Below are positions 17,427-52,567 of a DNA stretch of 64,000 nucleotides, in pieces; position 1 is the first letter of the stretch, and each line of letters starts with the position of its first letter. Made by a program: the position numbers and the translations under genes. Where the stretch lies: the NCBI GenBank assembly GCA_902783835.1, contig CACZSN010000013.1, positions 1-64,000 on the forward strand. Reading direction: 5' to 3'. Below the pieces are notes generated by a model. That model saw only the letters and a program-made list of their open reading frames with translations. It had not been told where the DNA came from and made no database searches. Origin of the DNA: an uncultured bacterium (lineage in GTDB: Bacteria; Cyanobacteriota; Vampirovibrionia; Gastranaerophilales; Gastranaerophilaceae).

Positions 17427-18136
17427 GATTCTTCAGCCTCAAAAGGTGTCAATTTATAACCGACATTTGTCACTGTTTGCAAGTATATCGGATGTTTCGG
17501 GTCATCTTCGATTTTTTGTCTCAAACCGCCTACATGAACTCTCAACATTCTGACATCTTCATCGCTGTCGTAGCCCCAAACTTCGTTCAGTAAAACAGCC
17601 AATGTGACTGAATTGTCGAAATATTGCATTAAGCAGTATAAAATTTCGAATTCCGTCGGGGTTAATTTAATTTTTTTATCTTTAATTGCAACTTCCAAAT
17701 AATCCGGAAAAAGCTCGAATACACCGACTTTCAGGATTTCTTTGCTGTTTTTTGCCTGCGGTTCATTTTTAGAATTTCTGCGTAACAAAACACGAACTCT
17801 GAGAAGAACTTCCTGTACGTCAAAAGGTTTTACGATGTAATCGTCAGCTCCTGAGTTGAAACCTGTCGTTTTGTCTGTAATTGTACCTTTTGCGGTTAAT
17901 AATAAAATCGGAATATCAGGTTTTTTATCACGGATGCTTTTGCAAACGTCGAAACCGTTAATTTTCGGCATCATAACGTCTAATAGAATAAGGTCATAAT
18001 CGTTTGACAGTGCTTTTTGGAGTCCTTCGCTACCGTCTTTTGCCGTATCAACATCATAACCGCTTTGAGCAAGGTCAAACTCTAAAAGTTCTCTGATATC
18101 TGTATCATCATCAACAACTAAAAGTCTTTTGTTCAT
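17423..18136 (-). CDS. OmpR/PhoB family response regulator
   Basis: A DNA-binding response regulator of 237 residues from the ATG at 18136. The receiver domain (residues about 4-118) has the acidic pair Asp9-Asp10, phosphoacceptor Asp53 in LLDVMMP, a conserved Thr in LLLTAKG and Lys in YIVKPFD. The C-terminal winged helix (about 140-235) has the LTPTEFEIL start, the RMLRVHVGGLRQKIEDD recognition helix region and the TVTNVGYKL hairpin. A longer GTG start at 18184 would add 16 residues unlike the family and has no ribosome site, so I prefer 18136. First gene of the operon with its kinase, tadA, TIGR02757 and GNAT genes. Confidence 0.93.
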   Translation of the reverse strand: MNKRLLVVDDDTDIRELLEFDLAQSGYDVDTAKDGSEGLQKALSNDYDLILLDVMMPKINGFDVCKSIRDKKPDIPILLLTAKGTITDKTTGFNSGADDYIVKPFDVQEVLLRVRVLLRRNSKNEPQAKNSKEILKVGVFELFPDYLEVAIKDKKIKLTPTEFEILYCLMQYFDNSVTLAVLLNEVWGYDSDEDVRMLRVHVGGLRQKIEDDPKHPIYLQTVTNVGYKLTPFEAEES

Positions 18137-48997: not shown

Positions 48998-50293
48998 TCA
49001 ACCGCTAATATGAGCTTTGCTTTTATTCATTTCTTTAATTATTGATATTGCTTTTTCAAGTTGCTTATCTTTTCCGCTAAATATTTCTTTGGGGGTGATT
49101 TTTACTATATAATTAGGGGTTATTTTGCTTGAATTTTTTTCAAAATTGTCTCCAAATGAATAATATGAAGTTGTTAAATTTAAGCAAGTTTTATTTGGAA
49201 GCGGAATCATTTGTTGCATTGCATTTTTGCCATAGGTCGGTTCTCCTATTACGACTGCTCTTTTATTTCGTTGGAGAGCTCCCGCAAGAATTTCCGAGGC
49301 ACTTGCTGTATTTTTATCGACTAAAAAAACAATAGGGATTTTATTGTCGATTATTGTATTGTTTTCGGGGATAATGGGGATTACGGAACCATTTCTGTAT
49401 TTAATTGAAATTATGCATTTAGAAGTGTACAAAAGTTTTTCGGCTATAAAAAGACCGTTTAATGCCTGTCCGCCCGCATCACCTCTAAGGTCTATAATAT
49501 ATCCTTTTGCATCCGGATATTTTAATATTTCGTTATCAAATTGCCCCGGTAAATTTTTACCCATAAATGTATAGATGAAAATGTGAACGATGTTATCATC
49601 AATCATTTTGCTTGCTAACTTGTTGATTTGCAAACATCCTCTCGGCAAATTATAGGTTATAACTTTATTATTTCTTAAAATTTTAACCTTGGAAAGATAA
49701 GTCTTTGTTCCTCTTATGAGGTTTATGGCACTGTTCATTTCCATGCCTTGTAAATTGTAACTGTTTATACTTATAATTTCATCGCCTTCTTTGGGATTCG
49801 GAAAGAAAGGAGAATTCGTCGAAACAGTTGCCTTTGAGACAATTCCGGCAATTGTTTCAAGTTCGACGGTTGCCCCTCTGTATCGCTTTTGAATTTTATC
49901 CAAAATGCTTTTGCTGTCAACGTTTTCTCTTATATACATTTCTTGCAGTTCGTAATTTTTAGCATTGAAAAATTGAGAATACGGATCGTCTAAACTTGCT
50001 AACATTGTGTTTACAGCAACAGTTACATCATCTGTCGTTTTAATTTTTGAAAGGTATTTGTACTTCCATTTGTTCCAATCTTGGTTATTTAGTGAAGAAT
50101 CATAGTACATTGTTTTAATGTTTCTCCACGCGGAAATAAACAATCTTTGAGGAGAAATTGTTTGTTTTGCCGCAAGTTTTCTCACAGAATTTACGTTGTC
50201 TCCGTTAAATAACACCATCGGAGAAATCAGAATCAATATTACAGCTAAAGATGCCGTTATAAAAAGAAACATTTGCAAAAGTCTTCTGCCCAT
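48998..50293 (-). CDS. S41 family C-terminal processing protease
   Basis: A 431-residue periplasmic protease. Residues 1-28 contain an N-terminal anchor or signal (MGRRLLQMFLFITASLAVIL). A PDZ-like region occurs around 130-200, and the catalytic core contains GGQALNGLFIAEKLL, NTASASEILAGALQ with nucleophile Ser333, and GEPTYGKNAM with Lys356 as general base. This is the CtpA/Prc type Ser-Lys dyad; in cyanobacteria CtpA matures photosystem D1, which is not expected here, so its targets are other secreted proteins. SD GGAGA precedes ATG 50293. A 165-base divergent spacer separates it from the small gene at 50459. Confidence 0.9.
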   Translation of the reverse strand: MGRRLLQMFLFITASLAVILILISPMVLFNGDNVNSVRKLAAKQTISPQRLFISAWRNIKTMYYDSSLNNQDWNKWKYKYLSKIKTTDDVTVAVNTMLASLDDPYSQFFNAKNYELQEMYIRENVDSKSILDKIQKRYRGATVELETIAGIVSKATVSTNSPFFPNPKEGDEIISINSYNLQGMEMNSAINLIRGTKTYLSKVKILRNNKVITYNLPRGCLQINKLASKMIDDNIVHIFIYTFMGKNLPGQFDNEILKYPDAKGYIIDLRGDAGGQALNGLFIAEKLLYTSKCIISIKYRNGSVIPIIPENNTIIDNKIPIVFLVDKNTASASEILAGALQRNKRAVVIGEPTYGKNAMQQMIPLPNKTCLNLTTSYYSFGDNFEKNSSKITPNYIVKITPKEIFSGKDKQLEKAISIIKEMNKSKAHISG

Positions 50294-50421
50294 ATGTAAT
50301 CTCCAATGATATATTGTTTGATAATTTTATCATGTTTTTTATGCTTTGTCATTTTGATAAAAAAATTTATAATTGCTACAAAACAGGCAAATATTTTTGA
50401 TATTTTGTTTTATTAATATTG

Positions 50422-50451
50422 TTGGTAAAAATTATAAAAATGGTGTATAAT
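50422..50451 (+). promoter_or_regulatory. Predicted promoter with start point at the ATG of the 57-residue gene
   Basis: TTGGTA at 50422-50427, 18-base spacer, TATAAT at 50446-50451, then AGCAACT and ATG 50459. No Shine-Dalgarno sequence fits; a leaderless transcript is predicted. Confidence 0.55.
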
Positions 50452-50458
50452 AGCAACT

Positions 50459-50632
50459 ATGAGTGACGAAAAAATTATTGATATAACTCCATTTATTAAG
50501 CCGCAAGCAGAAGTTGACAATGTCAAAAAACCTTGTGCTAAACACCATTCTAACCCTATTATGAAAAAACAATTTGTTATTAGTGTGAAGAATAATGTCC
50601 ACAGATTTTCAGTGGCTGATTTGTTTGATTAA
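50459..50632 (+). CDS. 57-residue small protein, leaderless candidate
   Basis: An intact 57-codon reading frame too short for most gene callers. The product starts MSDEKIIDITPFIKPQAEV, continues through VKKPCAKHHSNPIMKKQ and ends VHRFSVADLFD. It is soluble and basic in the centre, with a Cys-x-x-His-His-type cluster (CAKHH) that could bind metal. The TAA overlaps the ATG of the next gene by one base (TAATG), which suggests translational coupling. A TATAAT lies seven bases before the ATG. I do not recognise a family. Confidence 0.6.
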   Translation: MSDEKIIDITPFIKPQAEVDNVKKPCAKHHSNPIMKKQFVISVKNNVHRFSVADLFD

Positions 50633-51135
50633 TGTTTAAATCCTCTTATTCTTCGCTTGATAATCTTACGAAAAACCAAAAATCTTCTTTGGTCTCTTTT
50701 GTGAAAATTTTTGTAAAAAAACATTCTGTATCCTCTTCTGTTGAAGAAATATGGAATGATTTTGTCGAGGATATTGAATATGATTTTGCAATAGATAATC
50801 CTAAGTTCCCTTGGATTAAAGATTTTTTGTATGAATATGATTTTGAAAAAGATATAAAAAATCTGATTAAAAGTACCCTGCAACAAATGATTTACAAAGA
50901 GAAGCAAAAGCCTTATATAGAGAAGCAAAAAGCCATGGCAAAAATTGCAAGAAAAAGAGCAACCGAATGGCGACAGTCTCATGAAAAGCCTACTCGTAAG
51001 CAGGTTTCGTACTATAATGCTCTTTGCGAAAAAAATAAGGTTGCCAAGGTTGATTTATCCGAAAAATCTAAACTCGATTTGAAAAATATGATTGCTGAAT
51101 TGCTCAATGAAAAGCAGGTTTCTGATGAATTATAA
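50632..51135 (+). CDS. Hypothetical basic protein between the small gene and prmC
   Basis: A 167-residue soluble protein. The first 75 residues are helical and acidic/aromatic (EEIWNDFVEDIEYDFAID). From residue 90 it is strongly basic and helical (KAMAKIARKRATEWRQSHE), followed by a segment PTRKQVSYYNALCEKNKVAK near 125-144 that resembles the short 'ptrkQ..yl..L' helical motif of DUF3072-like proteins, though this is only a resemblance. It starts on the stop codon of the 57-residue gene and overlaps prmC by eleven bases, so the three genes form an operon. Nucleic-acid binding is possible from the charge pattern. Confidence 0.65.
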   Translation: MFKSSYSSLDNLTKNQKSSLVSFVKIFVKKHSVSSSVEEIWNDFVEDIEYDFAIDNPKFPWIKDFLYEYDFEKDIKNLIKSTLQQMIYKEKQKPYIEKQKAMAKIARKRATEWRQSHEKPTRKQVSYYNALCEKNKVAKVDLSEKSKLDLKNMIAELLNEKQVSDEL

Positions 51136-51955
51136 ACAAAAATACAAAAATTTATATCAGGCAACCTCTCTCTCTGATTATGATATTTCTTCGGAAATTG
51201 ATTTTGTCATTGAAATGTTGACAGGTCTTTCCTCAACGGATATTTTACTTGGAAAAGAAATTTCATCCGCCGATGATATAAAAATTTCAGAAATATTAAA
51301 AGAAAGAGTTTCCACAAATCGTCCTCTTCAACAAATATTAGGCAAGGCTTATTTTGCGGGAAACATATATTCCGTAAATAAATATACTCTTATTCCGAGA
51401 CCGGAAACGGAATTTTTGGTTGAAAAATGCAAACAAGAGTTTCCAAAAGATAAAATTATAAAAATTTTAGATATCGGAACGGGTTCGGGATGTATTGCTA
51501 TTGAACTTGCAAAGTATTATACAAATGCAAAAGTTACGGCTGTTGATATTTGTCAGGAAGCAGTTGACAAGGCTATCGAAAATGCTCGTAATTTCTGCGT
51601 TTTACCGAAAATTAATTTTCTTATTTCAAATGTGTTCTCAAACGTGCAAGAATCCTTTGACATTATAGTCTCAAATCCTCCATACATCCCGTTTTCGACT
51701 AAAATACAAAATGATGTTTATGATTATGAACCGCACACTGCACTTTTTGCCGAAGATGAGGGTTTGTTCTTTTACAAAAAAATTATTACAGAGGGTAAAA
51801 ATTTTTTGAATAAAAATTCACTTCTTGCTTTTGAAGTAGGTTTTAATCAAGGGCATGACGTTGCTGAAATATTTAAACAAAACGGTTATGTCAACATATT
51901 GTTTACACAAGATTGCGATTCAATAAACAGAGTCGTTTCGGCTAATTACCTTTAG
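51125..51955 (+). CDS. prmC: Peptide chain release factor N5-glutamine methyltransferase
   Basis: A 276-residue PrmC/HemK protein that methylates the GGQ glutamine of RF1 and RF2. The N-terminal helical domain spans about 1-90, with RPLQQILGKAYFAGN and IPRPETEFLVE (family RPxTE motif). The AdoMet site is LDIGTGSGCIAIELAKY near 114-130 and the catalytic NPPY motif is SNPPYIPF near 182-189. ATG 51125 gives the family length; the longer reading frame from 51092 lies inside the preceding gene. It overlaps the preceding gene's stop by eleven bases. Confidence 0.95.
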   Translation: MNYKQKYKNLYQATSLSDYDISSEIDFVIEMLTGLSSTDILLGKEISSADDIKISEILKERVSTNRPLQQILGKAYFAGNIYSVNKYTLIPRPETEFLVEKCKQEFPKDKIIKILDIGTGSGCIAIELAKYYTNAKVTAVDICQEAVDKAIENARNFCVLPKINFLISNVFSNVQESFDIIVSNPPYIPFSTKIQNDVYDYEPHTALFAEDEGLFFYKKIITEGKNFLNKNSLLAFEVGFNQGHDVAEIFKQNGYVNILFTQDCDSINRVVSANYL

Positions 51956-52018: not shown

Positions 52019-52567
52019 ATGGCAAAATTTATATGCTCAGTTTGCGGTTACGTATATGAAGGAGATTCAGCTCCTGAAAAATGCCCTCAATGCGGTGTTC
52101 CTGCATCAAAATTCAACAAAGTTAATGAATCAGCAGAAAAAGTTTATGTTACAGAACACGTTGTCGGCGTTGCAAAAGATGTAGATGCTGAAGTTTTACA
52201 AGGTTTGCGTGACAACTTCAACGGTGAATGCACTGAAGTAGGTATGTATCTTGCTATGTCAAGACAAGCTGAAAGAGAAGGATATCCTGAAATTGCAGAT
52301 GCTTTTAAAAGATATGCTTTTGAAGAAGCTGAACACGCAGCAAAATTTGCGGAATTGCTTGGTGAAGTTTTGACAAATTCAACAAAGAAAAATCTTGAAA
52401 TGCGTGCAGAAGCTGAATGCGGTGCTTGTGCAGGTAAAATGGATATTGCAAAAAGAGCAAAAGAACTCGGTCTTGATGCTGTTCATGATACAGTTCACGA
52501 AATGGCTAAAGATGAAGCTCGCCACGGAAAAGGTTTTGATGGTTTGTTGAAAAGATATTTCAACTAA
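52019..52567 (+). CDS. Reverse-type rubrerythrin
   Basis: A 182-residue rubrerythrin with the rubredoxin-like domain at the N-terminus (CSVCGYVY at 6-13, [11 protein letters not shown] at 26-36), and then a ferritin-like diiron four-helix domain with ligands in [21 protein letters not shown] and DEARHGKGF. This domain order is the reverse of classical rubrerythrin. It reduces hydrogen peroxide with electrons from NAD(P)H via rubredoxin-type partners, typical of obligate anaerobes. GAGGAG lies about ten bases before the ATG. Codon use is biased as in highly expressed genes. Single gene with a strong terminator. Confidence 0.95.

Follow-up and report, generated by a model that had tools for sequence, protein, structure and literature searches.

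A 57-residue protein is encoded at positions 50459 to 50632 on the forward strand of the window, the 64,000-nucleotide stretch of DNA analyzed here. Comparison with related genomes indicates that this gene is real, previously undescribed and conserved family-wide in these gut relatives of cyanobacteria, and that it is probably transcribed without an untranslated leader. The proposal as a whole, which we consider reasonably probable, is that a genuine leaderless small gene heads a unit of small protein, h167 and prmC, that its product docks through its C-terminal half, and that its wider or ancestral control is exerted by RpaB.

Conservation of the small protein

The frame runs from ATG 50459 to a TAA stop at 50630-50632, and the check suggested by the first-pass annotation, conservation of the 57-codon frame in sister genomes, found it kept as protein in four of four congeners. 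A single-sequence search detected the protein in all four of these genomes at E <= 3.1e-11; with the threshold relaxed to E <= 1, a match was obtained in 23 of 59 genomes, in many cases a weak one. A profile of 15 aligned rows matched 44 of the 59 genomes at E <= 0.1. Six of these rows (G010, G012, G018, G021, G030 and G050) had single-sequence E values of 0.0011-0.4 and were included for their common core. Within the same family, 34 of 36 genomes matched this profile at E <= 0.1 and 33 at E <= 0.001, some of them being profile rows themselves, and no match was obtained in G006 and G029. Genomes that contributed no row were also matched, for example G005 (2.6e-19) and G023 (2.9e-15). G050, from a different family of the same order, was a candidate at a single-sequence E of 0.10 before it became a profile row, and it probably carries a member of the small-protein family.

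Wider searches returned almost entirely the same family. In a class-wide draw, 155 of 289 genomes matched at E <= 0.01, 150 of them from the family, and a 43-row profile run across the phylum matched 124 of 292 genomes, 123 of them from the family; the sole exception (E 0.0032) has two internal stops. Three records titled Brachyspira or Heliobacteriaceae (L143, L157 and L177) bear the small gene and may be mislabelled Gastranaerophilales genomes.

Conservation is concentrated in the C-terminal half, with the core [ST]NPIxKK...F...KFSVxDLF. Among 43 sequences P33 is invariant and N32, I34, D54 and L55 are nearly so. The median dN/dS was 0.196 over 118 usable pairs of 132, pairs that overlap in ancestry, and the window gene compared with that of G001 gave a dS of 0.66 and a dN of 0.133. 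These values indicate that the frame is under purifying selection, and together with the conservation at protein level they back the earlier suggestion of a genuine undescribed small protein. The CAKHH sequence that had been singled out as a motif is not one for the family: its C recurs in the G004 row alone among the 15 aligned rows. A metal motif at CAKHH was ruled out, since the C varies even inside the genus.

No family in Pfam, NCBIfam or PHROGs matched the small protein at E <= 1, and a search of the PDB yielded no solved-structure match (best E values 0.39 and 0.45). In a low-confidence AlphaFold model (pLDDT 71.7, pTM 0.38), residues 33-45 and residues 52-55 form helices. The N-terminal half is variable and probably disordered, while the conserved half (NPIxKK...FSVxDLF) would be helical. 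We infer that the protein most likely works by docking this C-terminal half onto a cellular partner.

The start of the small gene

The promoter proposed by the first-pass annotation has the geometry claimed for it: a -35-like TTGGTA (50422-50427) is followed after 18 bases by the -10 element TATAAT (50446-50451), which ends 7 bases before ATG 50459, all on the forward strand. TTGGTA itself is unconserved and missing from the congeners, and its assignment as a -35 element does not hold up. The hexamer is kept in three of four congeners at 6-7 bases from the ATG (TATAAT, TATAAT and TATTAT) and is missing from the fourth, G004. No Shine-Dalgarno sequence precedes the window ATG. RNA synthesis would begin with the A of ATG 50459 or with the base preceding it, and because the -10 element is placed for such a start the mRNA would be leaderless.

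Retention of the -10 position among relatives backs this reading. Of 116 distinct members, which are related loci and not independent, 92 have a TAWAAT whose end lies 6-8 bases from the ATG: the distance is 6 bases in 68, 7 in 23 and 8 in one. Another member has it at 11, and 23 have no TAWAAT between 3 and 11 bases. After similar upstreams were collapsed to 53, a -10 element stood at 5-8 bases in 38, a Shine-Dalgarno-like motif replaced it in 11, and neither was present in four, including L195 with its misassigned start. These -10 counts leave out L032 and upstreams shorter than 60 bases (30 for the 116-member count). L195 was left out of the 116-member counts, the upstream alignment and the HLR1 scoring described below, and the -10 counts are slightly low because L199, which replaces it, appears to be misassigned likewise. 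L012 was left out of the upstream comparison within genus g11. In that genus, G147 reads GAGG-TATAAT-N6-ATG; in G014 and G279, GAGG stands 7 bases ahead of the ATG, with no TATAAT at that place. The two layouts suggest that the gene has changed between leaderless and Shine-Dalgarno starts.

A similar arrangement was detected at other genes. Among 492 starts of other ORFs (120 codons or longer) in L128-L207, which are not independent because these loci are partly homologous, TAWAAT lay at 6-7 bases in 32 (23 at 6 and 9 at 7); positions 2-5 and 8-10 held 0-4 each, and single positions farther upstream reached 11. This sharp peak suggests that the order Gastranaerophilales makes general, though minor, use of leaderless starts. 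In a sample of 348 starts from the window's own genome (G000), 11 had TAWAAT at 6-7 bases, positions 3, 4, 5, 8 and 9 held 1, 0, 0, 0 and 2, single positions farther up, in ordinary promoter range, reached 8, and a Shine-Dalgarno-like tetramer was found at 158. In Deinococcus, experiments are reported to show that a -10 motif lying about 6-7 bp ahead of ORFs drives leaderless mRNAs (PMC12340547), and one survey recognized leaderless genes by a -10-like signal about 10-12 bp upstream of the start (PMC3160421). The small gene resembles the leaderless genes of these accounts in its hexamer, its spacing to the ATG and its lack of a Shine-Dalgarno sequence. It differs in that its leaderless start is read from sequence, whereas that in Deinococcus is reported as validated by experiment, and in that nearly one-third of Deinococcus genes are reported with the motif, against the 11 of 348 starts sampled here. 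We found no publication joining Gastranaerophilales or Melainabacteria with leaderless transcription in the literature searched.

Another possibility, which we judge rather unlikely, is a leadered mRNA, with the ATG-proximal TATAAT being part of an AT-rich leader. Transcription would then start at TTGTCA-N16-TATAAT (50346-50373, forward strand), a pair that scores 11 of 12, better than the proximal one, and implies a leader of about 80 bases; in relatives it would start at a conserved TTTTTTATATAAATATAA element. The upstream pair is however not retained in the congeners, three of which keep the proximal hexamer: nothing comparable was found in G001 and G003, and near its place G002 and G004 have weak pairs (3/6 and 5/6) ending 85-93 bases before the ATG. 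The blocks CAATTTTT and TATATAAATA in relatives, shared among loci whether or not TATAAT precedes the ATG, would suit a leader, as would the 11 of 53 upstreams that look Shine-Dalgarno-led, a signal absent ahead of the window ATG. GAGG (AAGG in one case) precedes the hexamer in 24 of the 38 loci with a -10 element, 12-14 bases from the ATG, and could be a distant Shine-Dalgarno sequence of a leadered mRNA. Against this, the hexamer is kept exactly while the 6-7 bases after it vary, and it stands behind differing contexts, including a canonical extended -10 (TGn before the hexamer) in 6 of the 38. The comparison supports the leaderless start well, and it is the reading we retain.

Neighboring genes and candidate functions

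The small gene is followed on the same strand by h167 (50632-51135), an uncharacterized gene of 167 residues, and its TAA overlaps ATG 50632 by one base as TAATG, just as had been claimed. Homologs of h167 were present in 46 of 59 relatives, and it has no Pfam match above cut-off. prmC (51125-51955, forward strand) begins with ATG 51125 or ATG 51107 and overlaps h167 at its end; read from 51107, its frame matches TIGR03534 with 237.9 bits (cut-off 199.1). A rubrerythrin gene farther downstream (52019-52567, forward strand) is probably outside the unit, and an S41 peptidase gene (48998-50293, reverse strand) diverges from the same intergenic region as the small gene. The small gene would head a unit that continues with h167 and prmC, and translation of h167 probably depends on coupling at TAATG.

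The coupling to h167 and prmC asserted by the first-pass annotation is true of the window and common in relatives. Among 117 distinct loci, h167 lies on the same strand within 1.5 kb of the small gene in 76, both h167 and prmC within that distance in 57, prmC without h167 in two, and neither in 39, some of them with long flanks. Contig ends may conceal neighbors in these counts, and in some of the 39 loci h167 lies about 2.5 kb downstream. No constant partner was found in the 39; their flanking ORFs form several clusters. In L061, from the congener G004, there is no detectable h167 and prmC follows about 130 bases after the small gene. In L070 (G012), the h167 match is interrupted by two TAG and four TAA codons and reads as a decayed copy.

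These distributions bear on what the small gene could be for. It might be a leader peptide or upstream ORF that solely couples or regulates translation of h167 and prmC, for which the TAATG overlap here would speak, as would the first in-frame h167 ATG standing at the same offset in 13 of the loci with h167 within 60 bases. We give this hardly any credence: protein-level conservation, purifying selection and the 39 loci that lack both h167 and prmC within 1.5 kb led us to reject a function as leader peptide only. An action of the protein itself in translation, as a partner of PrmC, release factors or the ribosome, would fit the 57 loci with both genes close by, yet is also very improbable, as the small gene persists away from prmC and its product shows homology neither to a described family nor to a solved structure. 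Because 39 of 117 loci have neither gene within 1.5 kb, the small protein appears to be independent of prmC. The role in translation control that had been suggested earlier is unsupported, since the neighborhood was its sole basis and linkage to prmC is common but dispensable. Docking of the C-terminal half onto a cellular partner would remain the most likely mode of action.

HLR1-like boxes and RpaB

The most interesting lead of this analysis is the putative RpaB box in the relatives. RpaB, a cyanobacterial light-response regulator, is described as reading the HLR1 box, two direct repeats with a 2-base spacer (PMC9241938, PMC6331805). The 53 aligned upstreams contain, besides the blocks CAATTTTT and TTTTTTATATAAATATAA and TATATA stretches, the repeat WWTGTAAM-NN-WWTGTAAM. 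With at most one mismatch the HLR1-like repeat was found in 22 of the 53 (0.45 expected from first-order shuffles) and with at most two in 37 (about 4.9 expected), most matches ending 72-84 bases before the ATG. In 117 upstreams, a TGTWAM-TGTWAM pair had the HLR1 spacing in 53 cases, and no other spacer of 0-12 was seen more than twice. The promoters of the window gene and its congeners have 3-4 mismatches (three in the window), as in shuffles, and an HLR1 box in the window's own small-gene promoter was ruled out as being at chance level. Judged by this comparison, the window's genus has lost the box at the small gene. Because the promoter carries the box in many related genomes, the wider or ancestral control of the small gene would probably be by the OmpR-type regulator RpaB.

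The relatives' upstreams thus resemble the HLR1/RpaB promoters described in the two cited papers in their direct repeats and 2-base spacer, and an RpaB ortholog is encoded. They differ from the promoters described there in that the box lies on the strand opposite to the gene and mostly ends at the distance given above, in that the window promoter has no box, and in that RpaB binding here is putative. AtpTheta (atpT), a small RpaB-bound regulator of ATP synthase (PMC9241938), is likewise a small protein gene with an HLR1-like element; no relation of AtpTheta to the protein studied here emerged, the phylum search having given a single non-family match, at E 0.0032 and with two internal stops. 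No publication joining Gastranaerophilales with HLR1 was found in the literature searched, where a single paper mentioned both Melainabacteria and HLR1, in unrelated places.

G000 encodes RpaB (NF045944.1, 364.9 bits, cut-off 330). It is 70-71% identical to one protein each in three large, presumably photosynthetic genomes from other classes of the phylum and 60% identical to a further copy that one of these genomes carries. G000 has four OmpR-type regulators, and we infer that RpaB, and not the other three, would bind the HLR1-like sites. One of the four, a response regulator encoded in the window at 17450-17677 on the minus strand (PF00486, G000:C13), is not the RpaB ortholog.

Sites of this type may extend to other genes. 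G000 contains 25 copies of WWTGTWAM-NN-WWTGTWAM and 5 of the reversed pattern; the totals for eight genomes are 284 and 68, respectively, with 18 to 52 sites per genome. With one extra spacer base the whole-genome counts were 64 against 30. Without the flanking W the repeat was not enriched over the reversed control in a 423 kb sample of the window's genome (6 vs 7) and weakly so in L128-L207 with small-gene promoters masked (10 vs 6); with the flanking W kept, these counts were 6 vs 1 and 8 vs 2, and a spacer of 1 gave 5 vs 0 in the 423 kb sample. Among the 22 sites listed of the 25 in G000, 21 lie outside ORFs of at least 60 codons, which cover 90% of the sample, and 17 have an ORF start no more than 400 bases away on at least one side. 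This intergenic position may partly reflect AT-richness, since the single reversed-control match in the own-genome sample was also intergenic. The listed sites (L110, L119, L121, L123, L126 and L273-L287) are upstream of various genes. Several of these targets are undescribed proteins whose starts look alike by eye (e.g. L277, L126 and L278); two of the look-alikes have no Pfam match, and one other target has a SIS domain.

Melainabacteria are described as encoding homologs of RpaA, RpaB and NblS without photosynthesis, and another function, left unnamed in the relevant passage, has been suggested for them (PMC3787301; the same subject is treated in PMC5877343 and PMC4040986). A tentative proposition, to which we give somewhat less than even chances, is that an RpaB/HLR1 regulon still functions in the non-photosynthetic gut cyanobacteria, with the small protein, often leaderless behind an HLR1 box, among its most conserved targets. 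A conserved candidate target with an RpaB box in its promoter would make the question of RpaB function in Melainabacteria testable, and such a regulon, if true, would reveal RpaB control apart from photosynthesis.
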